Assembly: GCA_037951105.1 (NCBI GenBank)
Contig: JBAMJV010002072.1
Coordinates: forward strand, 249,501-313,500
Length of the DNA: 64,000 nt
Direction: 5' to 3'
Source: Echinarachnius parma
Taxonomy: Eukaryota > Echinodermata > Echinoidea > Clypeasteroida > Echinarachniidae
Part shown: positions 5,539-58,300 of the stretch, one piece after another
Numbering within the stretch: the first letter of the stretch is position 1
Layout: the number at the start of each line of letters is the position of its first letter
Notes under the pieces: model-generated
What the model was told of the DNA's origin: nothing
Seen by the model: the letters and a program-made list of their open reading frames with translations, nothing else
Database searches by the model: none
Translations under genes and position numbers: made by a program

Positions 5539-7214
5539 GGGCAATTCCACGAAAAATGTTACCCAATGATGGAAAAATGAAACTCATGGGACAGCCTTGT
5601 TAACTACTGGAGAGTAATGAGGGAAGGACCATATTTTGATGACTAAAGGAAAAAAGTTTGAAATTCAATGCAGAATATTTTTTTTTTTGGCCATTGAAGT
5701 TGGGACAAAAAATGTATGTATTACCCCCCAAAATGATGAAATTTGCATCCGTTGTTTGTGAAATAAAATTTAAAAATATGGATCACTTCAGAACAATAAT
5801 TCTACTTCTAATGTCTTGTTTATGCTTTGTTTTAACATCATAGAAAAGGAAATTGTGTAAAAATCTTTACTTTTTGAAAACTGTTATTCGATAAAATCTT
5901 GATTCTTACAACATTGATGTGTAATGTCCGTGACGTTTTAGATATAAAAGTTTTTGTAGAAGCAGAAGTCCTAATTCAATTTAATTCAAAATTCATTTGC
6001 AAAGCTAGAATGTTATATCATAAAGTATATCAACAGCATTTACTAAAATATTTGATGGTTTGTCCAGAATGGCGTCACGGCTGCGTCACGGGACATTACA
6101 TACACAGTGAAAAGTATAAAAAAGCAGAGCAAAAAAATATCAAGTATTATTTTCTTATGTAAATGTCTTACTTCAGCCAAGAAATAAGATAATCCCAAGT
6201 AACAGGGGGACTACTACCTTCCTGGTTCAAGTTTTAATAAATTGTATCGTTAATCAGATAGTGAACTTTGACTTTGAGTCAGTACTCTGATAACGTAATT
6301 TATTAAAACTAAATTCCTTGCTTAATTTGAACATGCATGTCTCAATAATCACTACAGATTTGACTATAACTTACTGGGAGGAGAAAGAGATGGTTAAATC
6401 TCATATAGTATGATCAAATTGCAAAAATTATACTCTTAGTCCATGATTTTCCATGTGTTATGCCCATGATGTACACAACTTTTTTTATATTTTAAAAATT
6501 TTTGGCACGAAACAGCATTGTACCTCATTAAAAATGTATAATATTTTTTTTAATAGTTGAACATTTGGTTTACTGCACATTCTGTTGAAAAAATTTAAAT
6601 TTTACAATACCGTAATTTTGGAAAAACTTATTAATATTTTTAAAATAATTTTTTGCTAATTGTAAACAAAATTGAAATATAATTTTTTTTCTCAAAACTG
6701 TTTGATTACATATCAAATGTACAATTAAAAAAGTGTCATGCACAATGGAGCATTTTTTGCGAGTTATTTCTGAGTTTAGAAAAAGTGGACAAAAGTGTAA
6801 TGTCCGTGACACTGAAAATGTAATGTCCGTGACGCAACGTTTTGTTGTCTAGATCACATATGCCTGGCCCGTTTCCCCCAAAACAACTTGGATTCAATTC
6901 ATCATTGCCTTGTATATAATTAAATACCTAAATCACCTTTGTGAGGTCTCAGAACTCACAGACTTTTGCAAAGATGTATATGGATGCAAAAAGTCATGTC
7001 CAAAAGATGTAATGTCCGTGACGGCGCACATTTTGCAGAATTACTCAGTAACGAATTGGATAAATGTTCTAAAACTTTTTTTATATACTTAACCAGGATA
7101 TTGTTTTGTAATCAAAATAAAAGTTAGACATTAGTTAGAGGTATGAATTAGTAGTGGCATTGGAAAGTCATGAAAATTCTCTGATTTGTAATGTCCGTGA
7201 CGCTGGAGTTGCCC
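5539..7214 (+). mobile_element. GGGCAATTCCA-TIR transposon, copy A
   Basis: Left end GGGCAATTCCACG, right end TGGAGTTGCCC, 4-bp target duplication GTAT (5535-5538, 7215-7218). The motif AATGTCCGTGACG lies at 5933, 6799 (last base differs), 6822, 7011 and 7190, and inverted near 6084; the 7190 copy abuts the right TIR. No transposase recognised. Inserted in an older element whose inverted arms are 5350-5400 and 7225-7273. Confidence 0.85.
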
Positions 7215-8320
7215 GTATACAGTATAGCAATGTGTATCCCGGCCCGATGTCAAACTACTGGTGGCCAGGGGTGCCCTTGATCAAAATGGCCGATACATGT
7301 TCCGCTAAATATCTCAAGAACTTGAGGGGCAATTTTGAGCGAATCTGGGTACCTGCATGCACTAAGTGCAGGAAATGATCTGGTGAAATCCTGAGTCCTG
7401 AGGTCAAAGGTCACAAAACTAATTGGTGCAAAAGTGCTGTGTTGGCTAGATACATGTATCTCAATTTGCTTAGAATCACATATCTTTATGTGTGCTCAAT
7501 TTCATGCTTTTATCACAAAGTTCACAACTCACTCATATTGGCATGCAGTTTTTACAGTTCACAATCAGCTATGGGAGGGGGGGGGGGGGGTAGTCGTGGA
7601 AAATGTTCCAACATTTGCGAGGCCGAGACCAGGATTCTTCACACTTTTCGAGGCCGAGACCATCGATAATGTCGGTCGAGACCACTAAAGTTACAATTTT
7701 AAAAGGGGGGGGGGGGGGGGTGGGTGTTCAAACCCCCCAAAAGAGTCATTTTTGGTCAAAGGGGGGGGGGGGGGGGGGGTTAACCCCCCCCCCCCCCCGG
7801 GTACGCCTATGTTCATGTCATTATACGTACTGTTACGTGTGCATGGTAAAACATCATCAACACACTACTCACTCCCGAGTTCTTCTAAAATAATCAAAAT
7901 AAACACACCGGAAAAGTTGTAATATTGGGTAAATTAAGCCATGTTAAAATCCAACGATCGATCCCATGCCTATGGCACGCCAAGTTTACATTGGGGTTGG
8001 GAAAGACCTGTGTTGGGAAATCAACCCCCCCACCCCCCCCCCCCCCCCCCCCCCCCCCTTACACAATTTGAGCGGTCTTGAGGCCACTTTAAGTGGTCTC
8101 GACCATCATAGCCAATGGTCTCGATCGGACCCCCCAAACCAATTAGTGATCTCGGTCTCGGCCTTTTTTGACAGGCTTCGAAAACTCTTCACCAACACCC
8201 CTCCCCCCTCCCCCCCTCGAAACATTCTACATCCCCCTTCAAATAAACCTCAACGACACCCCACTCGAATAATCCTCACCGACACCCCCCCCCCCCCCCC
8301 GTGAAAAAAATGGGTACGCC
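7215..8320. other. repeat mosaic with poly-G/C and GGCCGAGACCA blocks
   Basis: GAGGTCAAAGGTCAC (7401), then repeat blocks with GGCCGAGACCA, GGGTACGCC and long G or C runs, relatives of the MITE at 38428-38651. Confidence 0.6.
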
Positions 8321-8332
8321 ACACCCATCCCT

Positions 8333-8530
8333 AAAACACACCCCTCCACGCCCACCGTCACTCCTCCACACACACACCCCACACACGCATAAACACACAC
8401 ACACACACACACACACCCTACATTCACACATACACCCATCCTTAATCCTTCACATACCACGTGTGCACACGCACGCACACACACATACACAAATACACAC
8501 ACTCACACACTATACACAAACCTCACATGA
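8333..8530. repeat. (CA)n microsatellite
   Basis: CACACA tracts mixed with C-rich stretches, 100 bp before 12-mer array 2. Confidence 0.9.
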
Positions 8531-8630
8531 CCTGTAATGTTGGTGCGTTGGTATATATCCGTATGTCAAGAATGATCATTTTAATCCAAAATGTATGTCA
8601 TCATGGCTTTGAACAGGACCGTAGGTGTGG

Positions 8631-8767
8631 CGACAATTTGTGGTGCCAGCTACCAGCACAAATTGTCGCCGTCGCCTCCACAAATTGTCGCAAACGACAA
8701 TTTGTGCAGAAAGCGACAATTTGTGGTGCCAACATTTTGCACAAATTGTCGCATACGACAATTTGTG
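8631..8767. repeat. 12-mer array 2 (CACAAATTGTCG)
   Basis: Seven copies: forward at 8657, 8679 and 8740; inverted at 8631, 8695, 8714 and 8756. Same 28-bp hairpin layout at 8679-8706 and 8740-8767, centres CAAA and CATA. Confidence 0.92.
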
Positions 8768-8769
8768 GT

Positions 8770-9540
8770 GCAACATCCCCCTTTCCAAATTATATCATCT
8801 TATTTATCGTGATATGTTTAAAGGGAGAGATCCACTTTTGCAAGCCAAAATTCAAAAGTTGCGAGGTTATTGTCTTATATGAAAGGAAATGTCATTTAAT
8901 AGCATGCCTGAACAAATTAGGGCTTGAAATCTCTTTTTCGTGGAGTTATAGACCTAAAACTGAATAAACTGAGGGACGTCGGTTAATTAGGTACATACGT
9001 ATTTTCGGCCGTTGAGTAAGTTCGTACATAGATTTCACGGAGTGTCAGATCGGTATGCATGACCCCTACGTGACCCGCGCTAGCTACGTGACCTGCGCAT
9101 AAGTACTAATGTGTGAGCGTTTACCAAGCAAAATACCCAAACATCGCTTAAACTGACTACATGTAATTATATATTCTTTCTTTTTGAGATCCTTTTCCGT
9201 GACATACGTTAACAAATGTCGGCTTCACAATACCTTTACGAGAATTAGTACTATATTGTTGTAATATTATGCTAAATCAGTTGAACTCCTTTATTGACCG
9301 ATATATAGTTTAAATGGAGGGACGCATTCGTTTTTCATTCGTAGAATCCAAATTAGAGGGCTGTTCGCTCTGATTTTTTTTTTGCGTGTTACATTGATCC
9401 CCATCCGTCAACTGAAAGCTGTTCAGACGTTTTGTAAAAGTGGACCTGTCCCTTTAAATCTTGGGTTTTCACCCGAGAAAGGAAGCTCAAACAAATGATC
9501 GCTCTAAATAGCTGGATCGATTAAACCAATCATACTTTAA
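8770..9540. other. no gene seen
   Basis: AT-rich; no paired repeat or splice-framed coding stretch recognised. Confidence 0.55.
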
Positions 9541-9629
9541 TTGATCCCGAAGTATTGACACAAGAAGGGGAAGGACAACATGGAACATTTTCGCACCACA
9601 CTTCAAAAAGTGGTCGACGCGATCTATTA

Positions 9630-10401
9630 TATTCAGCTCAATGGATTTCTTTCACTTACATTATTCGAAAAGACGGTCAACATAATCTGAACAATGTTGA
9701 TCGGTTTCCACGCCATTGCATGTTATGCCGTATATGATTATTATCCTTTTGGGGTTGACTAAGTATTCTGTAATAAGGTGGATATACATGTTGTATTTAT
9801 ATGCTGTATGAAACTTCTAATAAGATTTCTATCACAAATTAAACACTGATTTGCATAAATTAGTAAATTAGAAGTTTTGGAAACTTACACCAACCCATCT
9901 TCATGCATCATTATCACCACCGTCATCATCATCATCGTCATTATCATCATCATAACAGCAATCACTATCATCATAACAGCAATCACTATCATCATTATCA
10001 TCATCACCATAGCCATTATATTCAGCTCAATGGATTTCTTTCACTCACATTATTCCAAAAGACAGTCAACATAATCTTAATAATGTTGATCGGTTTCCAC
10101 ACCATTTCACGTTATGCCGTACATTTTCGTATTCTTGTCCCATCTTTTGACTACGTATTCTGTTATATAATATAAGGTGGAAATACATATTGTAATAATA
10201 CAATTAATTAAATTTCAAATAAGATTTTCATTACAAATAAGACATTGATTTGCATAAATTAGGATGTTAGAAAAGAAAGAAGAAATGGACAGTAGGTACA
10301 GAAAGTTTCGTTTTTGGAAAACTTACACCAACCAAACTTCATCATTATCATCATCATCATTAAACTTTAAAGCCATCATCATCATCACAATAGCCATCAC
10401 T

Positions 10402-10434
<33 letters not shown>

Positions 10435-10500
10435 TACTTCATTATTATTATCATCACCATCATCATCACCATCATCATCATTTCATAACTGTTGTCATTA
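9630..10500. repeat. tandem duplication of about 390 bp with ATC microsatellites
   Basis: TTCAGCTCAATGGATTTCTT to TTGCATAAATTAG occurs at 9630-9870 and again at 10018-10262. Each copy is followed by AACTTACACCAACC and an (ATC)n tract (9905-10018, 10338-10486). Confidence 0.85.
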
Positions 10501-10927
10501 TCACAGAGATACTCAAATTAAAGTCACAAAAAACACAAATTCAAACTAACTTGTTCATGTTCGTTTTGTTTTATATACAAAAATGTAATTCAATTAATTC
10601 ACAAGGAGCCATTTTCAATATGAAAACAGATAACTAATTACTGTACATAATTATCAGGAGCAACGCCCATGTTGATAATTATCATCATAAAGTTCCAGCA
10701 AGAGTGGGGGAACAAGTGTTAACAAATACATTTTGTCAAAAAGTCCATACAAAAATCAAATACAAAAATTATTGTCTTAAAAATTTGTCATTTGGTAAGA
10801 AAGAGTAACATATTTTGTTTGATCAAAATATAACTGGGTTTGTGAAAGTTTTAAACTAAATCACAACGAATATAAAAAATAAAAAACCCAGTAAGAGTAC
10901 CATATGATTTCCCCTACATGACCGTAC

Positions 10928-11694
10928 CTAGCCTATCCGATAGGTGTCGGGCTTTTTGGCAAGTACTTAATCGCTAATATGGAGACGGACAACTGGCGAG
11001 CCCGAACCCGAGCGCAAAGCGCGAGCGCCTATCATCAGTCGTGAACTCATCATTATTCATATATGTTTATTGTATGTGTGACGAGTGTATTTTCATGCAT
11101 GATTCATAAGCCTTGCATGTGAACTCGACCACAGCGCACAGCGCGTTATAGTCTAGTTCTAGACCCTCGGAAATTGATCTCCACCACCCCGAAAAGCGCT
11201 GCTAAAAATGAGAGTCCTGTCACGCGATTAATGATGAATACAGATCTCTCGTTTTTAGCAGCGCTTTTCTGGGTGGCGAAGATCAATTTCCGAGGGTCTA
11301 GAACTAGACTAACAGCGCGTGTACAAAGTAATTGGCGCACTGTGCTGTGTGTGACCATGGATAGTACTATGGTGTGACTGTGTGTGACTGTCCGGCCGAG
11401 TTCTACACTGCATGCACTACGCTAGGTATACGGAGTTCATATGACGTTCACGGCCTCATCGCTCATTGGCCTATTTTGGTCCATGACACATAAATATTCA
11501 TGAAAGAGCTTTGCAGGGGGTTCGTAGATTTTCTACGAACGAAGTACAAAGAACAAAGTAAATAAAAGAAAATAAACTGTTCGCATTCACAAGTGACGAT
11601 AGGCATTGGGATGGGGTTGGGGATCGCTGGTTGTTTCGTCCCCATAACGCGATTAGTACTTGCTAGACAGCCCGACGCCTATCGGTTAGGCTAG
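10928..11694. mobile_element. TIR element with 7-bp target duplication
   Basis: Ends CTAGCCTATCCGATAGG and CCTATCGGTTAGGCTAG; direct flanks ACCGTAC on both sides (10921-10927, 11695-11701). 767 bp, no transposase seen. Confidence 0.8.
11151..11309. mobile_element. foldback MITE nested in 10928-11694
   Basis: 159 bp; arms of about 60 bp beginning GTCTAGTTCTAGACCCTCGG fold onto the other end. TA flanks both ends, suggesting a TA-target family. Confidence 0.75.
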
Positions 11695-11701
11695 ACCGTA
11701 C

Positions 11702-12200
11702 CTGAATAGTGAATACCACAGTGTGTACAATACATAATACATAACATACAATAAATAATTATTTCAATGTTTCAATATCAATACTTGGTACTTGGTACCT
11801 GGTTATGAAAATGCTTTTGATAAAGAAAGTGAAAATTGTATAGTAAGTACCGTAGTATTTATATATCATTAATATAATCATCTTCAAAATGGTAGTCATG
11901 CCCTACATGAATTGCAGTAGTTACACAAATATATTCATGCTGATGGTTTCCAAATTAAACTTAAAATATTCTAACACATCTGGAATGAATATATTATTTT
12001 AAAAATGGAAAAGTGGGTTAAACATTTGTTTTATTAGATACAATTAGAATGCAGGAATATTCTTGCACAAAGAAATTGCAAATTTGTAGATAAAATAGTA
12101 GAAAATCAGCAAAACTATATTTCTAGATGCATTTTCTGACACATACAAGAGTTCATTCCCTTTATACTAATAACTATGCAGACATTCCTCGTCCAGATTT
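11702..12200. other. no gene seen
   Basis: AT-rich, simple ATACATAATACATAACATAC run near 11730. Confidence 0.55.
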
Positions 12201-12201
12201 A

Positions 12202-12410
12202 CATACATGTAAGGGGATCTAGTAACTTTTGTTGACATTTTGCAAAAACTGACAAAGGGTTGATAAGATGTTTATTTTTGTAATCTGATATGTCCACTGA
12301 GTGATGTGTGAAAATTCCACGATACATGAATGTCATAGTAATGACAGAGTAATGAGCAATATTGCTAGTACTTTTTGTGGAGTTTGACAATGTTACTTGG
12401 TCCTTTTGAT
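12202..12410. mobile_element. T2-like MITE family 2, decayed copy
   Basis: Contains GGGGATCTAGTAACTTTTG and GACAATGTTACTTGGTCC, the family 2 ends, but no clear TTAA flanks. Confidence 0.55.
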
Positions 12411-12599
12411 GTTAGATTAATTACTTTCTGGACCAGCACCACCCCATACCAATCGTTTGTCCTGGGGAGAATCATGCACCTCGGAATAGTTTGACTAGAT
12501 TGATGGTGCAATAGAAGTGGTGAACAAGTAAGTAAGTACCAAAATTAAATTTGACACTAAAAAAAACAGACCCCAATTAACAGGACCCAAAACCATTTA

Positions 12600-13043
12600 C
12601 ATACACAACATTGGCAGTACGTTAAGACCAGAATGGCACAGATAATCAAATGTTATGGGATGGGAAAATTTGCCGGAGTATCGTGACTCGTCAATGGGCT
12701 ACCAAAGTCCAGCATAGAATAAAATAGACCAAGAATAGATTTAAACCTAGATTGGAACAGATTATCGAATGGTATGTGATGTGATCGATTCACTGGTGTG
12801 ACTAGGGTATTGCTGCTCTACCAAAGTCCAGCATAAAGTGAAACATACCTAGATTAACTAGATTGGGAAATATACAGATTATTATTTGATGGTTTTGGAT
12901 GGGGTCAATTCGCAAGAGAGACTGATCATTGGGGTATTGCTGTGCTACCAACGTCCAGCAGTGAAGAGTGAACAGGGTCGCCCACCTCAGATCACACTGC
13001 CTGCAGTTTGAGAAGGAGCGACAATCTGCGCTGACATGATTGC
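12600..13043. repeat. three-copy tandem repeat, about 125 bp
   Basis: TACCAAAGTCCAGCAT marks copies at about 12699 and 12819, TACCAACGTCCAGCAG at about 12946. The neighbouring minus-strand stretch 13043-12985 has exon-like edges (TTGTTGCAG ... GAG|GTGGGC) but I recognise no product. Confidence 0.65.
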
Positions 13044-13526
13044 CTGCAACAAAGAAAAAAAGAAGAAGAAAAAGGCCAGATATTATTGACAATGTCCATG
13101 ATAAAAGAAAACACAACACATTTAACTCCACAAGAAAAAGATATGAGCAATGTTTACATTTTGTCATAATTCTTCCTGTTATGAGAACAAAACAGAACTC
13201 ACATAGACTGATAAAAGACTTAAAATATATTTTGTCACTTATTTTGACTTGATTTAAAGTAATGATATTCTACTCAATAATTAGAACAAAAAAGATGAGT
13301 CTCTAACCTCACAACTTGGTTTTAAAATAGGGTACCACAGGGAACATTAAACTGACTTCTGGCATTAAATCAGATCACATAATGCAGCGCTTTGCATATA
13401 CTATGAAGATTTATGGGGTATTATAATTCTGATGGGCAAATACCAAGAATACTTCATATGATTGCACACTCTGTCATTGTCTAATTAGGCTGGTAGCCAA
13501 AATTTAGTGCCATGGTTGTGTATTAA

Positions 13527-16515: not shown

Positions 16516-16574
16516 ATACTGTTTGGGTGATACGTATTAACCTTTTTATTTGTTCATAACACTAGCCCATTGGG

Positions 16575-17700: not shown

Positions 17701-17704
17701 CACA

Positions 17705-25400: not shown

Positions 25401-28400
25401 CATGTGAATGTGAGCCGATGCATAAAAGGGATTACGTTGGAATTTGAATTCCTCCTGGTATTTGTTTTAGCTGCGAGTAAATATGGGTGGTAGTACGCTC
25501 ATCTGTCGACGCTGGTATCGATTGTAGTGGACTAGTTACTAGTACTTGATCAACAATTGCTCAGTCCTTAGAGAATTACTGCAGAAGTAGACTTGTATTG
25601 GGTATCATCTACATGTATATCCAATATTTAAAGGTGCATTAGTGTTTTGATATTTACGCATGTCCACAATCTTTCAGCATTGCTATTGATGGCAGCAAGT
25701 TAGTAAATCCAATTATTAACAATTACTGAGTCCTTTGGGAATAGGTGGTGTCCTCTGCCATAAATTGTTTTTTACTAAAAGGTGCAATACCCATGGCTAC
25801 AGCCTACAACACAAATTGAAGTACAGTATATCTAACAGCATTGGTATCAGGAAAAAAATTAATATTTTTTATTTCGGGGGCTCCTTTTCGGGGGCTACTT
25901 TTATCATCTCGGGGGCTACAAATTTCTGGGGCTCTTTTTCAAATTTCAGGGGCTACTATTAAGCTCTAATGCTGTAAGTGATCATCTGATCGGCATTCGA
26001 TCACGATCCAATAAAAAAAAAACCCAAAATCAATCAAAATTGTAGGATAATGTAACTCAGACTTGAATTAAGACTAGTCGCTACAGACTTGGATGAAGAC
26101 GAGTCGCTACCTGAGGATAACGGGAGACACGGAAATAAAGATCTGAACGAAACAACAATCATTATAGTTTCCTTTTACACTCTTTGACCTGATTCTATAT
26201 GGTGGCAGCGGAAAAAACGAACTATGGAGAGAAATCTGCCGATTCCAGAAAGTTTTGAGAAAATCGCTGGACTAAATCAAGCAGAACAATGGCCAAAATG
26301 GCTTCGTCGATTCAGCCGCTATCGCACTGCCTCAGGACTTGCAAAGCAGGCGGACAGCGAACAGGTCAGTACGCTACTGTATGCAATGGGTGACTGTGCT
26401 GATGACATACTAATAACGCTCGGAGTTGATGAATCAACAGCGAAGTATGATGAGGTGATCACAGCATTGAACAAATATTTCAATCTACGGAAAAACACTA
26501 TTGTTGAGAGAGCAAAGTTCAACAAACGTACACAGCGCCCTGGTGAAAGTGTCGACTCATTTATCAATGACCTGTACAGATTAGCTGAAGACTGCGAGTA
26601 CGGAACGCTGAAAGAAGAGCTGATAAGGGACAGAATAGTGGTTGGAGTGCTCGACGATGCCTTATCCGATCACTTGCAATCACGAGAGGACTTAAACCTC
26701 GCCAAAGCAGTACAACTAAGCAGACAAGCTGAAGCGAGGAAACAAAATAAGCCCGTTGTCAGAGGGGAATCAGAGGGTACAAATTCAAACCAGACAGTTG
26801 AACATGTTGGCTTCAAGCATAAGCCTACGACTTCGAATATGCGGGGCACATCGTTCACTTCACACAGCCAGGGAAGTGGCAAACCGTCCATGCTATCACA
26901 AGGTAACTGTCAATGGTGTGGAAGAGATAGACATAGCCGTGTAAACTGCCCTGCAAAAGACGCAAAGTGCCATCAATGTGGAAAGATTGGTCACTTTCAG
27001 TCTGTGTGCCGCAGCGGAAAGCCTCCACCGAGCAAACAAGGGAAAGTCCATGAAGTAGATGGAGCGGGAGGATATGATGATTCCTTTCTTGATGAAATTC
27101 CCTTCCTCGGAGAAGTCGGAGAAACAGACAAACGGTATTGGAGTGCTGATATTCAAGTGAATGGAAATGAAACACACTTCAAGTTGGACACTGGTGCTGC
27201 AGTTTCGGTGCTCTCAGATTCAACGCCATGGCTGGACAGAAGCATTCTTCAACCAACAAGTAAGAAACTACATGGTGCAGGAGGGAAAGTTCTTACAGTC
27301 ATTGGGCAAATGGAAGCAAACCTGCAGTACCATGACAAACAAATCACAGAGACCATGTACGTGATTGAAAATCAACCATGTTCACTGCTCAGCAGAAAAG
27401 CATGTACAGATTTGAAACTGATCGTCCTTGTTGGTGAACTTGACAAGCAGGAGAACTCACATGCAAATTTCCGGTCAGAATTCCCCGAGTTGTTTCGAGG
27501 ACTGGGACATCTGAAAAGGGCACACCATATCACACTGTCAGCAGATGCCAAGCCGCATTGCTTGTATACACCAAGGAAGGTCCCCCACCCCCTCCTTCCA
27601 AAAGTGAAGAAGGAACTGGACTCAATGCTTAAACTAGGAGTGATTTCTCAGGTGTCAGAGCCTACAAAATGGTGTTCAGGGATGGTTCCAGTGCCCAAGC
27701 CAAACGGGTCAATACGAATTTGTGTGGATCTCACCCAACTCAACAAAGCAGTCGAACGAGAAGTCCACCCAATGTCGTCTGTAGACGAAAGCCTCGCCAA
27801 GCTGGGAAAAAGCTCTATGTTCTCCAAACTAGATGCGAACAGCGGGTTTTGGCAGGTACCGCTAGACGAGGAATCAAGGCTTCTGACCACGTTCATCACG
27901 CCATATGGGAGATTTTGTTTCAACAGACTACCCTTTGGCATAGCGTCAGCACCAGAGGTGTTCCAAAAGACGATGTCATCCATCTTGGAAGGACTGGATG
28001 GGGTGATTTGTCACATGGATGATGTGCTGATACATGGACAAAATCAAGAGGAACATGACACCAGAGTGCGGGCTGTCCTTCAACGCCTACATGAAGCAGG
28101 ACTCACACTGAATGACAAATGTGAGTTCTCACAACAGCGGGTGAAATTCCTGGGGCATATCATCGACGAAACTGGTGTCAAGGTTGATCCAAACAAAACA
28201 AGAGCGATCAGAGAATTCCCTGCCCCAAGGAATGTGAAAGAACTCCAACGTTTCATGGGCATGGTGAACCAGGTAGGGAAATTCATACCTGGCCTTGCGG
28301 ACATGAATGAGCCCCTCCGTCAGCTCCTAAGCAAGGACAATACATGGAATTGGGGAGGAGAACAGCAGAGGTCCTTTGAGCAAATCAAAGACAAGCTAGT

Positions 28401-31400
28401 ATCCCCTGAGGGGTTAGCCCACTATGACCCAGGACTCCCTACAATCATCGCCGCAGATGCATCCAATACAGGAATGGGGGCAGTCCTGTATCAAGTGCAG
28501 TCAGATGGAAAGCGCAGGCCAGTGTGCTATGCATCACGCTCACTCACAGAGACAGAACAGAGGTATGCGGTGATAGAAAAAGAAGCTCTAGCAACAACAT
28601 GGGCCTGCGAGAAGTTCACAGACTATGTCCTTGGTCTACACTTCCAGGTAGAGACTGACCACAAACCTCTGGTCACACTCTTGAACTCCAAAGAGCTAGC
28701 AAAAATGCCCCCAAGGCTTCAAAGGTTCAGATTGCGGATGATGAGATTTGAAGCAAGGACAGTCTATGTTCCAGGAACGCAGCAGTTGACAGCGGATACC
28801 CTATCACGTGCACCGGTTGCGATGCCGGGAGAGGGTGATATCGCCTTGGTCGACGAGGTTGAAACATTCGCTTCAGCCACAACCACGAGTCTTCCAGCAA
28901 CCAAAGAAAGACTGGATCACATCAGAGAAGCACAAAAATCGGATGAAATTTGTGCTCAAATCAGACAGTACTGTATCGAAGGTTGGCCAGACTACATGCC
29001 GCACAATCCAGTCCTGAAACAGTACTATGAACAAAGAGGACACTTGACTGTGGTTGATGATCTGCTGATCTACGATGAGCGATTGGTGATACCTACAATT
29101 CTGAGAATGGACATTCTCCAGAAACTTCACCAAGGACAGTTGGGAATCACCAAGTGCAGAGCAAGAGCAAAAGAATCAGTGTGGTGGCCTGGTCTATCCG
29201 CAAATGTGGAGGAAATGATTTCCAGATGCATCACATGTGCCATCAACCGCCAAGAGACAAAAGAGCCACTGATGACATCATCGTTTCCTACAAGGCCATG
29301 GGAACGACTAGGCATGGACCTGTTTGAACACAAAGGAAAGTTGTTCTTGATAGTAGTGGACTACTACTCAAGATGGATCGAGGTCAAAGTGCTACGTGGC
29401 CAATCTTCAGAAGCAGTGATCCAATCGCTGAAGGAGATTTTTGCAGTCCATGGGATACCGGACTTGGTGATCTCGGACAATGGACCACAGTTTGCAAATG
29501 AGAACTTCAAAAAGTTCACCAAGGAGTATGGATTTGTCCATACAACCAGTTCACCTAGGTATCCACAAGCGAATGGTGAAGCAGAGAGGGGAGTGCGCAC
29601 AGTGAAGGCCTTGTTGAGGAAAAACGAGGACATCCAGCTTGCACTCCTAAGCTACCGGTCGACACCACTGCAGAATGGTATGGCACCATGCGAGCTCCTG
29701 ATGGGAAGACGACTGAGGACACAACTTCCTGTTCTCCCTCAAACACTCATGCCCAGAGTACAAACACAGGACTTGGAGAATGTGAAAAAGAGGGAGGACA
29801 GATATCGCACCAATCAAACAGCGAACTACGACAGGCGCCATTCATCGCAAGTTCTCCGAGAGCTTCAACCAGGAGATGCTGTCTGGGTGCGAGATCAATC
29901 TCGCTTCGGACAGGTGGTGGGAAAAGCAGAGCAGCCAAGGTCCTACCACATCCAGACAAACCAGGGGATGGTGCGACGGAACAGAAGTGCCTTGGTTGCT
30001 CTCCAGAAGCAGCCATCCACAACGCCGCAGCAGGATCCTCCAGAGGATGTCTACGCGGAGATGCCACAGGAGAACCAAGTCTGGGAGCCGGGGGCGTCTT
30101 CGAGTCCACCGGGAGACCAGCAGGTAGCCAGGGGCCGACAGAGGGACTCACAACCAAGTACGCCGGGGTCGCCGCCTGAGATGAGGACTCGATCTGGTCG
30201 TTTAGTAAAACCACCACCGAGGCTCTCGCTATAAGAATTTAAAGCTAAAATAAAAAACTAATTAATGAGCTAATTAAGAAGCCTCATTGAACTTTTTGAT
30301 CTTTTGGACATACATTTTAATGAAAGCTTGGACAGATTTATTTGGACAGATTTATAAAACACTCTTTTTAATATAGAAATTAAAAAAGGAGTTTTTTAAA
30401 GAATTTATTAAGAATTGTGGTCTGAACGAATTTGAATTCACTGGAATTTGAATATAGTGAAAATGGATTTTGGACTGTGGGATGAATAGCTTGGGGGGAG
30501 ATGTAGGATAATGTAACTCAGACTTGAATTAAGACTAGTCGCTACAGACTTGGATGAAGACGAGTCGCTACCTGAGGATAACGGGAGACACGGAAATAAA
30601 GATCTGAACGAAACAACAATCATTATAGTTTCCTTTTACACTCTTTGACCTGATTCTATAAAAATCAATCGGGGGCTCTTTTGGGCATTTTGGGGGCGAA
30701 TTCACCCGCCGCCCCCGTGTATTTTTTTCCCTGATTGGTATTGATTTTATATATCCAATTGTTTAATCCTTCTAGGGTATTAAAAACACTAGCATTGTTT
30801 ACCAGGCAGGGCTTGAAATTAGCACTGGCCTGCTGGCCAAGGGCAACTAAATATTAAATCTGGGCAACCAAATGTTTCGGGCCACTAAAATAAAAGAAAT
30901 TTTGAGTTTACTTGCCCCACAGGGCAACCAGTAAAAAACTTTATTTCGAAACAGTGTATTAGGTGAACTATACCGTAAAGATACTTTTAAAGGTGCACTA
31001 CTGGTTCACTACTGATTTGATTTACCCATGGCTAAGACAAAAGTTGAAATACATTGTACAGTACTCTGTCAGCGTTGGTATTAATGTCAGTGAACTAGCT
31101 CCAATAATCAACAATAAATAAACAAATCCTGGTGGAATAGCTATTATAGTTGGACTTGTATTGGGTGTCCACTGTCCCCTGTTACCATTACGCTGACCTT
31201 AAAGGGATCTAGTACTTTGTTGACATGTGCAAAAACTGATGAAGGGTTGATAAATTCCATGGTAAATGAATGTGTTTTGTTTTTTCTGATCATTGCATGT
31301 AACGCAACAAATTTCCTTATGGACAATAAAATCAACTTGAACTTGAACTTGAACTTATAAGACCGAGTAATGAGCAAAAATGGGAAGAGATATTCACTAA

Positions 31401-40519: not shown

Positions 40520-40539
40520 CTGCCAGCAGCTACCTAAGA

Positions 40540-43314: not shown

Positions 43315-46300
43315 GTAAGTACCGTGTGGGAATTCGGATACTGTGCTAAAAAAGACGACACATATTGTCATAAATGAATTTAGATTTTCAATTAACTTAT
43401 TTGAGCAGATTTCTATGTCGAATTAAAATGACCACATAGATCTATTTGTTTTTTTCTAGAGCTTTGGTGATTTTTGTGTTAGTTAAATTTAAATTGACTG
43501 GTCCGAGGCGCGCGGCGCGAGGAATTGCTGAATACTATTTTCGCGTTGAGCCACACCAAAACATATTCGGCTTTTAACTTCGCGGCCGAGCAAGTGTTCA
43601 CACGCATTGCAAATCGCGCATTTATATTCACGGAAATCTGCGACGTTTACAAACTTACTAATACTACATGATACAGATTTTGAACTTTGCATTTTGTTTT
43701 TTGTCTTTTACTTTTAGTTTTACTTTTTTTTAGATGAATGATTCCGCGATAGCGTTCTACTTCTAGATCCTCCTAAATATACGGGACCGAAAATGAAGTT
43801 TTTGTGTGCAAGCTAATTGTGCTTAAAATTATACATATGATACGGTACTTACCACCGATTCAATCTCCAATATGTGATCCAACTTGACGGTGGATTGAAA
43901 TTATGATTTTTCCCTCCATTCCGCTAAAAATCCGTGATTTATGCGCCTCCTCGACTTCTCTCCGTCCCTCTCCGTGTGTTAGCGCGACTCCGCACAGATT
44001 TTGAACGAAAGATGATCGCGATGGCCGCCGATGCGTACGGCGAACGGCGCCATGCGATACACATGAAACTATTACCGCGCATATTCATGTGTATCGCATG
44101 GCGCCGTTCGCCGTACGCATCGGCGGCCATTGCGATCATCTTTCGGTCGAAATCTGTGCGGAGTCGCGCAAACACACGGAGAGGGACGGAGAGAAGTCGA
44201 GGAGGCGCATAAATCACTGATTTTTAGCGGAATGGAGGGAAAAATCATAATTTTAATCCACCGTCCACATAGCCAGCGAGCGGTACCTTTCGCGAACGAT
44301 AATGTATGCATGACATCATTGATCGCGTGCGCACGCATCTCATTACGAGACTTGGCTGGCTTCTGGGCCGATTATGCATGCCATGAAAATGTGGTATCGG
44401 AGCGGTATCGGTCTGGACATAGCACAGCCCAGGGCTTACCCTTTTCGCTGCATTCTCTTCCCACAATTCATTTCGATGCTTACGTCATTGGCTTTCTGAA
44501 CGCCCATTCTACACGTTGATACCAAATTCGATACGCGACTCTTTGGACAAAATCTTGTGAAAGAAGGTCTTTTTCACCTGCTGTTTTTCGCCAAAATGGA
44601 TTTTGAGCTATTCGGGATGCCGTTTATAAGGTAAGTTTTCGATATTTCGAAAATTTTGTATGTGAATGATGATAATTTATCTGAATTCTACATACTTTTA
44701 TCGATCGTTTCATACCTTTTTTCTTGTGTGCGAGTGTTGATAAAGTTGTTGACATGGACATTATGCATGGTTTTGCAGTCCCGATATACAGTAGCTATCG
44801 TCGTACTTTTTTGTGCATGCACAGTGGAGCGCTCTGGCACGTGTGCGTGGGGCTGGCCTCATAAATATTCATATGATTTTCATGCGCAAGCGCACTTCGG
44901 CTGTACTGGCGCTCGGCGAAGTCATATAATGGGAATACACGATGAATGGGACAGCGGGCTATGTGCCGTCAAGTTGGATCACATATTGGAGATTGAATCG
45001 GTGGTGAGTGCCGTATCATAAAAATTTAAAGCACAATTAGCTTGCACACAAAAACTTCATTTTCGGTCCCGTATTAGGCACATCTACAATGTAAATGGTT
45101 CTGGTAGAACCATTTACCTTACAGTCATCCACTTCGCGGTCGAAGTAGGTTTCACTTTTTTCCACTCTCACATTCCTTCTCTTTCTTACTTCTTTTGTGC
45201 TCCAGCAATCCATGAATGGATGCCCTTTTTTTCCTTTTTTTTCTTTCTCTATTCTGACTAAAAAATGTTCTGCTATACTCACCAAATCTGCATTTTCAGC
45301 GGGAAAAATTTGTCAGTCGGGCTTCCTTCGAGAACTGGCAGGAAATGGCCGCGTACACACGCCACCTATGGCTGGCTATGGCATAACATATCGCGACGTA
45401 CGGTAGCTCTATCGATATAACATGTAAACATGAAAGTTCGTTTACTAGTCTTTTACAAAGTGTACTTGAATGTATGTTGGTAGCAGAGCGTAATGACAGG
45501 CTTCACATAATTACGGCGTTAATAGTCAACGTCTTGATGGAAGATTAACATCCGATTCCGATCTCGAAAGGTCAACACTCGAAGAGAGTGCACATTACCA
45601 GCGTCACGTAACTAAACATCGCTATGCAATGCATTGTATCGCATGTACGTAATTGTGGCGTAGAGATCGCACTCGGACTCGGACCACAAAAATACTGAGT
45701 CGCCATTACAACACAGCAAGCATGCTAGAAACGGGCTAGAAACGTTGACGTTTCTTTGAAAATGGGCTGATTTTTCCCCTTTTGCCCAAATTTAGGATTT
45801 TTCAAGTGGCATCTGGAGTAAAATGGTGAGTATATGCATTAAACATATATGTCTGAGAGTGAGAAGGTGAAGCATAATTGTCATGATTTTGCTTTCTGAA
45901 GATACAATAATTTGTCAATAAATTTGAACGTAAGTGAATGGCAATGGGTGTATGTGTGGTATTAGGAAGATCTAGAACGCTAGTGCAGAGCGCTAGCGTT
46001 CTCTAGAGTTAAGCGAGGCTGAGCCTGAGAGCATTGAATTTTTATTGGCTGCTTTTCTAATTATCAATACTATAACATATTTAGGACGCGGCCGCCCACC
46101 CCTGGAATGTGGGGCGGCCGCCAATATCTCCAAAATAACTACATACATGTGTATTTCATCATGTTTTTCCCATTGTGTGAAGAAAAAACATTCCTAAGTT
46201 GTTATTTGCCAATTGGATTTTGAAATTAAATTAAATGAAACTGTGAGTGTGACACAAGTTTTGTGAAAGTTATTAACCTGTTGCTTACGGGTACCTAGTG

Positions 46301-49300
46301 GGTTAATAATAAAATAAATAATCTTTTGTTTCCTCTCCAGTGATGCATGACATTGTGAAGACGATGTTCAATCCACGCTTCGTGGGAGAGCTCTTCAAGC
46401 CGCAAGACATCTACTCCAAGAAGGCCATGAGAACCGTGTTTGACCGGCTGGCCCACGCCTCCATCATGCGTCTCAATACAGCTAGCATGGATAAGGTGAG
46501 CGACTCTAAACCGTGTGAAGATGATGTGGTTCAATATAAATTTTTCAATTTTTCAATTTCGTTTATTTAACATTTTCATTAAAAACATACAAAAGTATAT
46601 CTACATTAGGTAAACAGATGAAATTACAAGCAACATAAAGCATGGAAGAAGAAAAAAAAAGTATACAAGTATACTCATACAAATGAAAGTGTTTGGTACC
46701 AGAAGGAAGTCAGCACCTTATATGACAACTGAAACTAACATAAAGAAAATAGCGCTAATTCAGAGGGGCAATTCCACGCCAAATGAGCCAAAAGTGGAAA
46801 AATCAAATGAGGATTATTTCTGATCTTGTTTATTTTTTCTGGATTATTTTTTCATAAATCATGATCACATAATGATATCTTTCAGTTTACATGATAAAAA
46901 AAAATATTGGGCGTCTCCTGATAGGAGAAACAGACACCATACATGAACCTATACACATGGGACTACACAGTGCCTATTTCTAGATTTTCTTAATTTTTTG
47001 CATTCCTTTCTATTATTTTTCTGTTTTAAGGTACCAAATTGGATGATTGGATATCACAACATGTGTTCACATTAAAATTTCAGTTTTTTGAGAGCCCTAA
47101 AGTATATTTTTAATGAATCAAAAACTCTGTCCTTCCGTTACTGTCCTTCCGTTACCGAACAGTGAAGCAATTAACTTCTTGTAATTAATATACCAATAGA
47201 CATATTTTTTTCAAATAAATGTTGTAATACTCTTTGAACACTAGGGAATGGACTATGAGCCAATATAACATGATAGCATTTGAAACTTCACAGAGATTGG
47301 ATCATAACTAAAGAACTCGAAAATCCATGTCCATTTTGCCGTCCTTCCGTTACCGGCCTCATTAGTGTCCATATCTAATAAACGTAATGTAAAAAAAAAA
47401 AAAAAAAAAAAGGAAATCAAAGGTGTCCCACCAAGAGTCTCAGAAATGTTATTTACAATGATGAATCATAAGCAGGATCCTGGAATTATTTGATTAAATT
47501 TCAAAAATTGCGTCTGAATGTCCTTCCGTTACCGTGGAATTGCCCAGAGCAAAGTGGAGATGGTCTGTATAATGGATTAAAGACGAATGGGGAGGAAAGA
47601 TCACACTGGTCACAAAGTGGTTTAATTGATTGAAGATGAATCTGTCTGATCTTTCCCACCCCATTAAAGTGATCCATCAACTTTTGTTAAATTCAACCAA
47701 AATTATTTGGAGCTTACAAACTTTTCTTGTATCTTGTTGTTTGGCGTATGAATTTTAAAACCGAAGAATTAAGGTTTTGATTTTTCTGATGTCCCCCTAA
47801 TTAAGGAGCGTTTGACATTCCGGAACGCTTTACAATTGTAGTAATTGTAGCATGGTACTATGGAATTTCGGATAATTTGCGTGAAAACCTTACGAGGACA
47901 ATGTATACATGTTTGAAGTCTCAAATATCTTTTTTGGAAAAACCTCATGTACATGGATCACTAAACCTAACATTGCCTTCAAGATTCTGAAATCCCCATA
48001 GACTTTGTACATGGCCCACTCGGTTCCCATATGGCAAGGGGTTAAAACCCATCATCCCTTTGTAGATGTATGCATCCCTTTGATCTCTACCCCATAGTTT
48101 ACATGTATTTTTCTCTTATCTTCATCCACCAGGCAAATCACACTTTATTATGGTGTGATCTTTCCTCCCCATTTGTCCTTAATCCATTATACACAGACTA
48201 TTCCCACTTTGCTTTCATTTGAGGTCTTTTCTTTAGATACATTTCATCTCTATATACCCCTCAACCCCTCATCAGACTTTGTATCTTCTATTTCTGATCT
48301 CCCCCCCACCCCCCCCCCCCCCCCCCCCCCCCATTTAATCCATTACACAGATCATCTTTTTGTTTTGTTATTAATTATTGTTGTTTGTAAATTAATTATT
48401 TTTTTTTTTTAACATGACTATAATATGACTTTTATCAGATCTGTGGACCTGTTTTTGTTTTTGTTTTCATTTTGCTTCTGATTAAGAAGATTCTCAGAGG
48501 ATCAAAAACTCAAGTCTTGTATTTTAGTTAATGAATATAAAGTAATTTTTAAGTGTATGTGTGTTGTTTACAATTTGGGCCACTCCAGTTAGCTGTTACC
48601 TAAAATCAGAAAGTGTAAGTCTGGTTTTACGGCTTTTACCTAGGAAAGTTGGTTACAAATAGGTAAGATTCTTACAATCTGTAACACGAGGTGTTTTCCG
48701 AAGAAGATGTTAGATCCATAAATTGAATAAAATACCATGCTGGAATCAATGCATTTATTTGTGATGTTGAATATTTCATCTAACTTTTGTCTAAATCGTA
48801 ATGTAATGCATACTAGTATACAACCCATTTCTGCATTTTTAATATGAATGTACACTGCATACAAGTTCCTGGATCAATTGTATATTTGGTGGAGTTTCAT
48901 AATTCACATTATTATACATGTACGTGTACATTGTGAGCAATATTAATCAGTTTTGGGTTTATGCACGTATCAGTAATTGCATCATGATTGCCATGACAAC
49001 CCCATTTATTCCTGTATGCACAGTAATTTACTGTATACTGTTTTGCTGACCAATAAAGAACTTTCATGTAAATGTACAGTATGACTTCATTAATGTTTAA
49101 TAACTAATCAGATATTAATGATATCACAGGACTGCCCAGAGCCAACTGTACAGTGCTTAATACTTTCAGCCAGCTCAATTTTTGAATGTCATTATTTGGT
49201 TGTCTGCCTGTCAATAACAATGAAAAAATAATTAAAAATTGCAATTCTTCTATGGAAGCATGTCAAGCCTCCTCCATGATTTCAGTTGTATTAATAAAGG

Positions 49301-52300: not shown

Positions 52301-55300
52301 CTATTTGTACATATATTTGTTTAATTACTTCTTCTTCTTTATGCAGACCTTTGCATTTGTTCCTGTGGGTGAATTCCAGCTGATCAGACAAACGCTCTTA
52401 GGATTCTTCCAAGATATGCACATAAGGGTAAGTCAGTGGTTTCAATTTAATTTTTAAATACTTGATTGTATTCTTTTTTGTTGTCTTTTCTTCCTAATTA
52501 AACACATTTGAGACAATTTTGTATTCAGTTGTAATTTCTTGTTGTTCTATGAAGTAGTGAGTGTTCATTAGTCCTTTATTTATCACTTTAAGTAGTGTCT
52601 AACTCAAACATTTACAAATATACCATTTTTAACAAAATGACATAGTGCAGCAATGTACTTGTGATAATAAATTCATATTTGTTCAATATATATGTTTGTA
52701 ATTTAAGACTCTACCCATTCATATCTTCCATATTTTTATAAAAACCATCTATTTCAAAGAGTAAATTTTGTCATTAAAATTTAAACAAAAGTGTTTTACA
52801 AATTTTCGATTGTAAAGAGGTATACAATGTACATGTTTGAAGCATGTACAAATGATTGTAATTTGTCCGCTTTGATTTGACACGTACATGTGTTGGCCGA
52901 TGAAACCCATTGTTAAAAATGTAGATTGTTCAAAATTTTCATGTAGATCGATCTAGTAGCTTTCTATTTACCCATTTCATCACTATTACCCATCTGATAT
53001 TGGTCATTAATATGAAGTACATGATATTGTGTTCCCACTGTGTATGCAATGCACCATGGCAACCACTGAGGATGATTGATGTTGGTTTCCATAGTAACCA
53101 GTCGGCCAGCCGAGAGCCACCAATACAAGGCCATTATGTTTGCTTCGTTAGCTACACACCCACTTGTGTGAAAATTATCAATTATTGTCAGTCTACTGAC
53201 TGTTGGGCGTATGTTTATTTAGATGTATCATGTACAATGGATGCGCAGCCTGCCTGCATGTCTGTGTGTGTGCATGTGTGTGTGTGCTTGTGTTAGTGTG
53301 TATATGTATGTGTGTGTTTGTTTTTGCATGCATGTGTGTGTGTGTGTGTGTTTTGTCTATAAATAATGAAATCGCTATTAGACGTAGGACAAACATTCAA
53401 CCCAGCAGTCTTGTAAATCACTGATTCTGCCTCATTGAGCAAATGTAATGGAAGTTTAAGACAATGTATGTGTGTATATTATGTAAACAAGCGCATGTTT
53501 GTGTTTGTACATGTGTGCGTGTGTGTGTGTGTGTTCTGTGTGTGTGTGTGTGTGTGTGTTTTCTTTGTCTAGATAATTAAATTGCAATTAGAGGAAGGAC
53601 AAACAGTCAGCCCAGCAGCCTTGTTCATCAATAAATTATCACTGATTGAGCAGATGTAATGAACTGTTAATGTGTGTATTAACTATTAACACAAGTTCAG
53701 TATTGTGTGTACGTGGGTGTGTTTACTTGTCTGATAATTAAATTGCAATTAGAGGTACAGTAGTATTTATAAATAGGATGTATTTGAACTCAGCATCATC
53801 AAAAAACCATCATAAAATTTATTTTATCAATAACTCATTGCTTTAAATATTGAGATGTAATCGACTTTTTGCTGTGTTTGTGTTCTGTGTGCAAGTGCCC
53901 ACATGTACAATGTGCAATGTACATACTGTATGTATTTTTGTGAACGTGTGCCTGTGTACTTGTTTTCTGTTTTGTTTTCTAGAATATAATTATAATGCAA
54001 TTAGTAGCAGGGACAAGTCTTTTGGGTGTTTGAGAATGAACCAATTGTCTGATTTTACTGGCTAATATGAATGTTGGCAATTTTTATGTTCTTGTGGATG
54101 TATTGGTATACATGTACACTAACATTTGTCTATAGATACTGGCCCATTCAGGCAAATAAAATCATACATTTCAATATTTGACTTGCCCCAATATAAAAAT
54201 GTACTTGCCCTCTTATTTCCAGATGAGATTAACACATATTAAATAACATTGTTCTCTTGTAGTTCGAACAATTATTTACATGTAGATGCCCGATCAGGCA
54301 ATCAAACTAGACAATTTATGAAATTGTACTTGCCCGGCACCAATTTTTACTTGCCCCGGGCAAGCAGACAAGTGCTAGTGTCGAGCCCTGGATATTGTTA
54401 TGAATGCTTTGCAATATCAGTGAACCACAGACTACATGCATATCGTTCTATAGAATAAGATATTGTAGAGCGCTCTACATTCATATCTAAGCAAGAAAGC
54501 ATCTATAATGTATGAAGGTGGCTTAAGTGGATCTAGTAACATTGTCCAAATCCACAAAACTTACTTAGTGGTTCTCTCATACCTTGTTATATTTTTTATA
54601 CCAATGATTATAAGCTTGGAACATGTTTTTCCCCTTTCTTTAAAAAGATATTTACAATTGAAGTGTTTGGATTTGTATTTATCCACTGTACAAAGTAGTG
54701 CAATGAGTAAGCAAATATCACTTTGCAATTTCCGCTATTACTCAGCCATAGATCATCCATTTAAAGTGAATTTTGTACACATTTCTTGGTTGAAATATCA
54801 GATCACAACAATACACATTTTATCAATGATTCATCACTTTTTGCACATGTACATGTATGTCAACAAAGTTACTAGATTCATTAAAACTTGACAGACCTTT
54901 TCAGAAGCTCTTGCTGAACTTCAGTACTTTAGAATCCAACATGTTTTTAAAGATACTCACCGGTGCCTTGTTTGATCAAGTTTTTTATAACTTTTCAATT
55001 GCATCTACTGTGCTTCTCTGCAGACCTATCAATATTCTTAAAAGAGAAAGTGCAGAGCTCAAATGGAAGGTTCATTCTACCCGTGGGTGAAAACTAGTGC
55101 TGTAACTGACCTTGATGATCGGATCGGTTGATCGGATTTTTTTTCTTTGGAAAATGAAACCCAAAAACATATTTTGGGAAAATAAATGAATACCAAAGCA
55201 ACATATGAATAAGCCCAAGGTAATCTTGTATGGGTATGCTTTCATTTCAAACTGATTACCTCTCCTTTTACAAAATTACTCGCGGCGATTCTGAACGGTT

Positions 55301-58300
55301 ACTAAGCTCAGTCCCATGTGATTGATTTGGCGTAACATTCAGAATCGCCGCGAGTAATTTTGTAAAAGGAGAGGTAATCAGTTTGAAATGAAAGCATACC
55401 CATACAAGATTACCTTGGGCTTATTCATATGGATATATGTTGCTTTGGTGTTCATTTATTTTCCCAAAATATGTTTTTTTTTTTTTTTGTTTTTTTTTTG
55501 CCGATCCGATCTTCCGATTTTTCTGCATGATCGGAAATCGGCAGAAACGATCTCGATCAGGCATGATCGGATCGGGATCTTATGCCAATCCGATGATCGG
55601 TTACAGCACTAGTGAAAACATCCCAAATGGAACAGATTAGGAACAGAGATAACTCACTAAAGGGCAATTCCAAGCAAACATTGACATAAGCACCCATTTT
55701 TCAAATTCGTCGAATCATAACATATTTGGTATCAAATTAAAGCTTAAAGATTAAACTATTCAGAAATGCATTTTGTTCAAAAAAAAATTAGTCATCTATA
55801 TGTCACGCTGTTACCCTAAAAACAGGCATTTTTAATATTTCTGGAAAAATATGAATGGGAATGAAATTATTTTTTGTTTCTTCTTCATTCGCCCATAGGG
55901 CTATATTATGGATGCTAAATAGCAGCATTATCTTTTACCACTAATTAATCTAAGCAATATCAATTTGGTCACGCTGTTACTTTTTGGGTAACAGCGTGAC
56001 GCAACCTACTTTTTTTTTGCAATATCTCAAGAATCGTTGGATGGATTCTGTTCAAACTTTGTACAAGACATGTATTCAGAGGTATGGATTATCTGATACA
56101 TTTTGGGGCCATGAGGTCAAAGGTCAAAGGTCACAGCTAATTAATATGCAAAAAATATATTATTCTCAAGATATTTCAAGAATCCTTGAAGGATGACATG
56201 ATAATTAATACTGGTATGCGTTCAGTGAAGTAGATGACCTGATTATAGAATTTGGTCATGGGGTCAAAGGTCAACAGGTCAAATTATTGTAGTTTATTTT
56301 TTATCTCACAAAAAAATGCCAGAATTAATGTTAGAAAGAGTACTGTAGATAAAAGAAAATTCTATGAAAATGTTTGGAGCACAGGTCAAAGGTCACTCGG
56401 ATAATTACCAATTCAAACACAAAAACTTACTGAGATTGAAATCATGTTACATGAAACAAATCACTTGTAGATATGCACTGTGCCACATAAAATTAAACAT
56501 TTGTATGCTAATTTGAGAAATAAGGTCAAAGGTCAGATGTCAAAGGTCTAATATTTCATTGTTGCAATTAAGTTTGTATTTTGGGTTTGATATTTGATGG
56601 TTCCTCAAACTAAATTCTGAAAAAGATAAGAATTTCAGTTTTGTCCAAAAACATTTTTGATCAATAGAGGGCGCTAGGCTGCAAATTTGTGTCATGCGAA
56701 CCATCATTTCAGAGCATCTGGGTTATATTACCCATTCATCTAGTTCTGTATAGATTCTGGATGACTACAATTAAAATTATATAATCTTTTTCATCTCATC
56801 AATATCTCCCATATATATAACATGTACAATTCAGAGGTCACGCTGTTACCGTCACGCTGTTACCGTGCACAGATACGTTTATGATATCATATTTACTATG
56901 AACATTGGATTTTTTCTACATTTTTATTTGGATGTTCTAGCTTGATATCTAGTACAAACAATCAATGTGACAAAATTGCAAAATGTTCCTGTAGTTCACA
57001 GAGTTTGCTTAGTTTCTTACCATGTAAGAAACCCATGTCTTTTTGCCGTCACGCTGTTACCGCAGATATTGATATTCATAATTCATAATTTAGTGGGAAT
57101 TTTGATTTTCTTTCCTATTGTAAATAATTAGTAGGATAGTGGTAACAGATGCATATCAAAATTTGGTTCTGGACATTTTTATTTTGTGAGTTATTTAGAC
57201 TTTCATCGTGAGAAACACCCTCCTACCGTCACGCTGTTACCTTGGAATTGCCCTAAAACAATTTTAATTTGGTATGGGTTTCTTACTTTGATTTTTCAAA
57301 ATTGGGATTCTAATTTGGTATAATATACATTTTCTTATTTCTGCAGGTATCAATATTCTTCAAAGAGAAAGTACAGAGCTCGAATGGAAGGTTCATTCTA
57401 CCCATTGGTGAAACCAACCCAACAGTACAGAGACAACTCACTAAAACTATTTGATTTTGATTTTTGTGATTTCTGTGCGTTTTTGATTATTATTAGGCAT
57501 TCTAATGTTGTTTACTATTCTTGTACCTTCCCGCAGGTTTCAATATTCTTAAAAGAGAAAGTACAGAGTTTGAATGGAAGGTTCATTCTACCCATTGGTG
57601 AAACCAACCCAACAGTGCAGAGACAACTCACTAAAACTATTTGATTTTGATTTTGTGATTTCTGTGTGTTTTTGTTTATTATTAGGCATTCTAATGTTGT
57701 TACATTATTCTTGTACCTTCCCGCAGGTTTCAATATTCTTAAAAAGAGAAAGTCCAGAGCTCTAATGGAAGGTCCATTCTACCCCTTGGTGAAAACATCC
57801 CAAATGGAACAGAGATAGCTCACTAAAACAATTTTAATTTGATATGGATTTTTTACTTTGAATTGTTTTAATTGGTTCTAATTTGCTTATTTCTGCAGGT
57901 TTCAATATTCTTAAAAGAGAAGGTACAGAGCTCGAATGGAAGGTTTGTTCTACCGCTGGGTGGAAGCGTCCCCTACGGAACAGAGATACCAGGAACTATC
58001 AGGTATAGTGAACATTTCATTTCAGTTTACATCATCTTTGTTTTAACATAATAATATTTGTGACTGGCTATAGCAAAACCCTGCACTTGTTGGTAATTCA
58101 TGTTTTGAAGAAATTGGCATTTTAAGTTCACATAATGTGTGTGAAAGACTTATGATTGTAAAATTGAAACGATCACATCTTCGCCTAATTATTGACTAAT
58201 TTGGTAGAACAAAGCATCAAATGAAAGCTTGTGATGAGGCCTTTCTAATGGCATGAAAATCTACATTTTTTATTTTTACCGACAAGTGCAGGGTTTTGCT

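Follow-up and report, generated by a model that had tools for sequence, protein, structure and literature searches.

Elements with a short terminal inverted repeat in Echinarachnius parma that carry type-specific iterated motifs on a conserved layout

Layout of the motif copies

The window analyzed here, a 64,000-nucleotide stretch of an Echinarachnius parma contig (JBAMJV010002072.1, positions 249,501 to 313,500), carries three elements, A, B, and C, which are bounded by an 11-bp terminal inverted repeat (TIR), GGGCAATTCCA, and by 4-bp target-site duplications (TSDs) of GTAT, AGAG, and TAAA, respectively. Each element repeats a short motif of its own in a small number of places, termed slots, and the major finding for the group to which the elements belong is that the slots are kept while the motif copies of an element change together. 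When the sequence was re-read, the elements, TIRs, TSDs, and motif positions described in the first-pass annotation were all recovered (Table 1), with the right TIR of element A, TGGAGTTGCCC, having one mismatch. The right-end spacings given for A, B, and C were likewise exact, being 189, 198, and 197 bp from doublet to single copy and 179, 179, and 180 bp from single to terminal copy. Left-half copies in A and C, including inverted copies, had been missed. The degenerate inverted copies of element A have intact counterparts, at 534 and 559, in its relative L042. Slot L1 of the window C element lies unusually close to the left end, unlike the ~360 bp seen elsewhere; in the other C elements, it was found at 354 to 359 bp in 6/8, with inserts in 2/8.

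Table 1. Coordinates of the three elements, their motif copies, and a second repeat in the window
Feature	Position	Strand	Details
Element A	5539..7214	+	1676 bp; TIR GGGCAATTCCA/TGGAGTTGCCC; TSD GTAT; relatives L042, L072, L073
A, left slot L1	5923..5935	+	384 bp from left end
A, left slot L2	6073..6099	-	Degenerate inverted motif A copies, read from sequence
A, doublet	6799..6834	+	6799-6811 (one mismatch) and 6822-6834
A, single slot	7011..7023	+	
A, terminal slot	7190..7202	+	
Element B, short form	46766..47545	+	780 bp; TSD AGAG; left half without separate motif copies
B, doublet	47129..47157	+	Starts 47129 (one mismatch) and 47143, 14 bp apart
B, single slot	47341..47355	+	
B, terminal slot	47520..47534	+	
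Element C	55662..57253	+	1592 bp; TSD TAAA
C, left slot L1	55802..55815	+	140 bp from left end
C, left slot L2, forward arm	55968..55981	+	
C, left slot L2, inverted arm	55987..56000	-	
C, doublet	56837..56864	+	Starts 56837 and 56851
C, single slot	57048..57061	+	
C, terminal slot	57228..57241	+	
C, AGGTCA/DR1-type repeats	56111..56559	+	Second iterated word, not tied to the switching motif

The layout was surveyed with 131 TIR ends and 13 representatives. The first-pass annotation had proposed asking whether, across genomic copies, motif positions are conserved while the motifs fall into discrete types, and this is what was observed in the copies examined. Thirteen types were distinguished, a number that is a lower bound from a sample, with the cores A TGTCCGTGACG, B GTCCTTCCGTTAC, C GTCACGCTGTTAC, D GTCACGGCGTTAC, E GTACGTCCGTAAC, E2 GTACGTCCGACAC, F GTAACGTTAC, G GTAACGTCAGTTAC, H GTAACGCGAGTTAC, I GTCCCGGTGTTAC, J GTAATTCCGTTAC, K GTCCCGTCTGTCACG, and L GTAACACCCGTAAC. 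In the iterated motif, a short variable spacer appears to separate two roughly GTNAC-like half-sites; GTNAC describes the 3' half in 12/13 types, and the 5' half conforms to it only loosely. In all 13 types the right end has a terminal slot at -23 to -27, a single slot at -194 to -213, and a doublet or triplet at -381 to -424. The single-to-terminal distance is 168 to 187 bp (mean, 178.2; standard deviation [SD], 4.8), and the doublet-to-single distance is 187 to 198 bp (mean, 192.3; SD, 4.3). These figures include a terminal copy of E2 that was placed by hand, having three mismatches to the E2 core, and a layout for L that was read in L049 at the inner end of a tandem pair, an end whose TIR has two mismatches. 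The copies within doublets are 14 to 15 or 21 to 23 bp apart, and an element holds 4 to 12 copies in all. Left slots at 340 to 386 and ~510 to 580 bp were found in 9 of the 11 types read end to end (A, B, C, D, E, E2, F, G, and J), and the complete J element (3,238 bp; TSD TATA) has its left copies at ~360 and ~526. The short B and F forms are without left-slot copies. A translated comparison of 12 sequences confined the similarity between families to the ends.

The abundance of the TIR was assessed by exact word searches on both strands of the 1.2-Gb assembly, with the reversed word as the control. The GGGCAATTCCA ends numbered 5,022 + 5,067 (10,089 in total), compared with 37 + 38 (75) for the control, and are thus far more abundant than expected by chance. 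The words TATA, ATAT, and TTAA before the TIR were searched because a duplication that reads alike on both strands tags both ends of an element. TATA gave 217 + 212 matches (control, 1 + 0), and 45 plus/minus pairs accounted for 90/100 places among the matches listed. ATAT was over-represented, with 550 + 560 matches, or 1,110 of the 10,089 ends (control, 0 + 0); 18 pairs accounted for 36/100 places among the matches listed, and in families A and J, which are found among these ends, one TIR may carry a mismatch. For TTAA (36 + 41 matches; control, 0 + 0), 24 pairs accounted for 48/77 places. An exact 4-bp TSD was present in 51 of 53 elements assigned to a type, most of which had been chosen by that match, and was off by one base in L010 and L034; neither of the two type K elements read shows a clean 4-bp TSD.

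Concerted change of the motif

The 53 typed elements (A, 2; B, 14; C, 9; D, 17; E, 1; E2, 2; F, 4; G, 1; H, 1; I, 1; J, 1) are a nonrandom set, most having been picked for exact, paired TIRs. Their slots contain 292 copies with at most one mismatch, a threshold by which the terminal copies of D and E2 fall outside the count, and 284 of these were of the element's own type. The other eight were all GTCACGGTGTTAC, which is one base away from C, from D, and from I. Partial ends, L081, all elements of types K and L, and the two composites (L049+L050 and L080) were excluded from the count, as was L002, which represents the L001 element again. The families are young, with identities within them of 97.9% (four C elements), 98.2% (six B elements), and 98.5% (five D elements). 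Types E and E2 are 57 to 59% identical overall; the E copies among those listed were all GTACGTCCGTAA, and the E2 copies were GTACGTCCGA.

The sister families C and D are told apart by a diagnostic dinucleotide. In the nine C elements it is CT in 61 of 63 matches, the remainder being a GT outside the slots and an AT in one terminal copy. In the 17 D elements it is GC in 109 of 118 matches, the remainder (eight GT and one CC) lying outside the slots. In majority sequences from five C and seven D elements, the scaffolds differ at 194 of 1,718 sites (11.3%), and the identical CT-to-GC change was found at 7/7 slots, the inverted copy included; the D terminal copy has two changes beyond it. Genome-wide, pairs with the second motif 175 to 195 bp after the first, counted for the doublet-to-single step in the C-then-C and D-then-C orders only, numbered 355 and 0, respectively (controls, 0).

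The sequences beside the motif behave differently from the motif itself. The 15-base flanks of the same slot in different families have a mean similarity of 0.444, compared with 0.398 (SD, 0.005) when slots were shuffled within families, and none of 500 shuffles reached the observed value. The single slot is flanked by CATGTC...TTTT in each of B, C, D, F, G, H, and I. Apart from one mixed element, L080, flanks follow position and motifs follow the element. In addition, motif B is identical at 59 of 60 bases over four slots between the short element of the window and the long element L011, although their right ends are only ~82% identical, which argues for constraint on the motif.

Search for an encoded protein and comparison with known systems

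The first-pass annotation had also suggested looking for an autonomous member with a transposase. None was found among the TIR pairs of more than 3 kb (L009, L010, L049+L050, L051-L054, L069, L080-L082, and J [L070+L083]), which proved to be nested copies, copies with inserts (L051-L054 among the loci), or long forms without a transposase-like frame. As an observation in its own right, the C element of L009 (~1371-3675) is interrupted by a repeat starting GGGTCAATCCACG, with ~7 bp duplicated. An element-encoded zinc-finger binding factor was considered from L048, where a 467-amino-acid C2H2 frame ends ~190 bp inside a type L TIR; this was rejected because L075 and L076 (protein 89% identical) have the gene without the insert. 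The insert, at 2001-2144 of L048, is a solo 144-bp TIR end, apparently in an intron of the C2H2 gene, and is absent from L075/L076; a further C2H2 paralogue, L079, has a motif-bearing end at the same place. Locus L047 contains a THAP exon (Pfam match) and a second frame without a Pfam match, which we presume to be transposase-like. Between them, at 1996-2445, lies a 440-bp type A fold-back with motif-like sequence at both ends and the TSD ATAT, which is taken as a probable nested insertion. A 191-amino-acid open frame was noted inside a B-type element in L064.

Several known systems share features with these elements. The Kolobok target site is TTAA, unlike the present TSDs, which vary and for which TTAA precedes just 77 of the 10,089 ends. 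Likewise, the hAT TSD is 8 bp, unlike the flank agreement of the three window elements, which spans 4 bp only. In the hAT element Hermes, the transposase uses its BED domains to bind short subterminal repeats, whose phasing matters; no concerted motif switch is reported in the portions of that study consulted (PMC10368747). Sola2 elements resemble the present ones in that their TIRs are short (12 to 13 bp in one species) and their 4-bp TSDs are AT-rich, ATAT being an example (PMC3627910); a Sola2-type transposase was not found in the elements read.

CACTA/En-Spm also has a family-specific iterated subterminal motif. Both ends of the Jozin CACTA elements of Chenopodium carry direct and inverted iterations of a unit of 10 to 20 bp; related elements have different 12-bp units (TATTTGTAACTA, TATTTGTAACGG, and TATTTGCGTCAC), and the copies are 83 to 100% alike within an element. 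The sections of that report drawn on here describe 19 to 23 closely spaced copies, CACTA termini, and a 3-bp TSD and report no conserved slot layout (PMC8978399). The present elements differ in their termini, GGGCAATTCCA, their 4-bp TSD, their 4 to 12 copies, and their fixed slots. In the VANDAL elements of Arabidopsis, according to the parts of the source used, a short motif that differs between relatives is bound by an element-encoded protein, VANC; binding was shown and co-evolution proposed (PMC5735166). Unlike the tandem repeats of VANDAL (a MULE), the motifs described here lie in dispersed fixed slots, form only doublets or triplets, and are replaced in place. No binding protein was found in the elements read, which were all non-autonomous copies. 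The first-pass annotation knew of no described family of this kind. That assessment applies to the fixed, sparse layout, for which no description of in-place motif replacement was met in the portions covered by a limited literature search (PMC3627910, PMC5735166, PMC8978399, PMC10294476, and PMC10368747), but not to the concerted motif change, which is already known from CACTA and VANDAL. A literature search with the letters of GGGCAATTCCA gave, among the matches listed, what looked by title like chance matches.

Three further features of the sequences were noted. The C and D representatives contain 11 and 12 copies of AGGTCA (expected, 0.5 and 0.7) and the E representative contains 4 (expected, 0.3). 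Several of the C/D copies are DR1-type repeats, GGTCAAAGGTCA, which we take to resemble nuclear-receptor sites. Elsewhere in the window, positions 43886-44265 form a fold-back with a 182-nucleotide inverted repeat, 97% complementary, and 16 nucleotides between the arms, and positions 26188-30234 hold a 1,348-amino-acid open frame that, from the list of open reading frames only, looks like a Ty3/Gypsy-type polyprotein.

Interpretation of the layout and of the motif change

We propose, with a probability of roughly 0.6, that these elements are a non-autonomous cut-and-paste group with an 11-bp TIR and a 4-bp TSD, each lineage of which is matched by a motif-binding protein that co-evolves with its sites. 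The right end would serve as a conserved platform, with sites near -26, -206, and -400/-417, to which most types add left sites at about +360 and +525. The motif would be the recognition site of a sequence-specific protein matching each lineage, most likely the DNA-binding part of the lineage's transposase or else an accessory protein. Such a binder, perhaps a dimer or a tandem-domain protein, would load on the ends, and a geometry-bound complex would form. When the specificity of the protein shifts in a lineage, its sites would change by selection, while spacing and flanks would stay, presumably because the geometry is needed for complex assembly. The first-pass annotation had suggested a bound factor co-evolving with its site, or else homogenization within each element, and its interpretation finds partial support; the layout, the near-purity of the motifs, the position-specific flanks, and the concerted change were all observed, whereas binding, the identity of the protein, and co-evolution are inferred.

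Several observations weigh against this proposal. None of the elements read showed a frame resembling a transposase, and L010 gave no Pfam match in the 5/6 frames scanned. Left-slot copies were not found in I (L010, read whole, 5,463 bp) or in H (797 bp), and the layouts of E, G, H, I, and L each come from one locus. The scaffold similarity is weak for K overall and for F, G, H, J, and L at the right end. The motifs are 96% identical within elements, compared with 64% between types of equal length, although the former value owes something to the way copies were collected, which was by similarity. The last bases of the terminal copy deviate in D (GTTTG), E (GTAAT), E2 (GAATT), and I and J (GTTAT), and E2 copies vary between GACAC and GACCA. 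Finally, L080 holds a D element (1534-3543, minus strand; 2,010 bp; TSD TGAA), nested in a C element, that has D motifs at its left, single, and terminal slots and C motifs in its doublet. Between about -612 and -331 its sequence agrees with the enclosing C element, even in changes private to that copy, and by -277 it is D again. This is a conversion tract of ~280 to 335 bp from the surrounding C element, flanks and scaffold included, although an assembly error is also possible. When all loci collected were searched for same-strand pairs of exact C and D cores no more than 450 bp apart, no mixed element other than L080 was found. L080 speaks against a perfectly pure switch of every motif in an element, and our confidence was lowered slightly by it and by the missing left copies in I.

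L080 also bears on the possibility that one variant is spread within an element by gene conversion, template switching, or slippage, with no matching protein. Conversion between copies does occur, as the C doublet with its private changes in L080 demonstrates; the long B elements carry a repeated right-end block, and the motifs within an element are nearly identical. The conversion in L080 took a long stretch with its flanks and so looks unlike the family-level switch, in which the flanks beside the motif follow the slot rather than the element. The slots are ~165 to 200 bp apart, and the inverted C/D copy changed like the others; copying just 11 to 16 bp into seven dispersed slots is implausible. 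The flank pattern and the retention of motif B across ~18% divergence fit selection on a binding site better than tract copying, and homogenization is considered improbable. A different role for the motif was also weighed: a factor from the host or from the element would bind it to support expression, counter silencing, or position nucleosomes rather than to promote transposition, and the switch would evade host repression. The slot spacings of ~180 and ~195 bp are near the nucleosome repeat, and C and D also carry the DR1-type repeats. There is a precedent in VANDAL, in which, by the part of the account used, VANC targets differ between related elements (PMC5735166). Against such a role, copies read without a transposase-like frame still keep the layout, and one motif site adjoins the TIR; we regard this explanation, too, as unlikely. 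The weak scaffold similarity of K, which is without a linked partner, and of F, G, H, J, and L means that some layouts could be convergent. That independent families arrived at the layout throughout because the geometry is required, rather than by motif replacement on one scaffold, is nevertheless very unlikely: C/D, E/E2, and the hub around I are clearly homologous, the left end links F to B and H and links G to E2, and the single-slot flanks are shared by seven types.

The ends may be a conserved platform with an exchangeable private key, by which the lineage, exchanging the recognition word in its slots, repeatedly splits into mutually incompatible families, perhaps escaping titration by thousands of non-autonomous relatives, and the ~180/~195-bp geometry would be fixed by the assembled complex. 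This extension is offered tentatively, and we hold it to be somewhat doubtful. The elements provide a natural series of matched site changes on a constant geometry, with at least 13 recognition words in one genome and with C/D among the sister pairs. Should the partner proteins come to light, it would be possible to test directly how DNA-binding specificities co-evolve and how transposon families arise that have ceased to cross-mobilize, and the long-range slot spacing would inform how a transposase assembles on chromatin.

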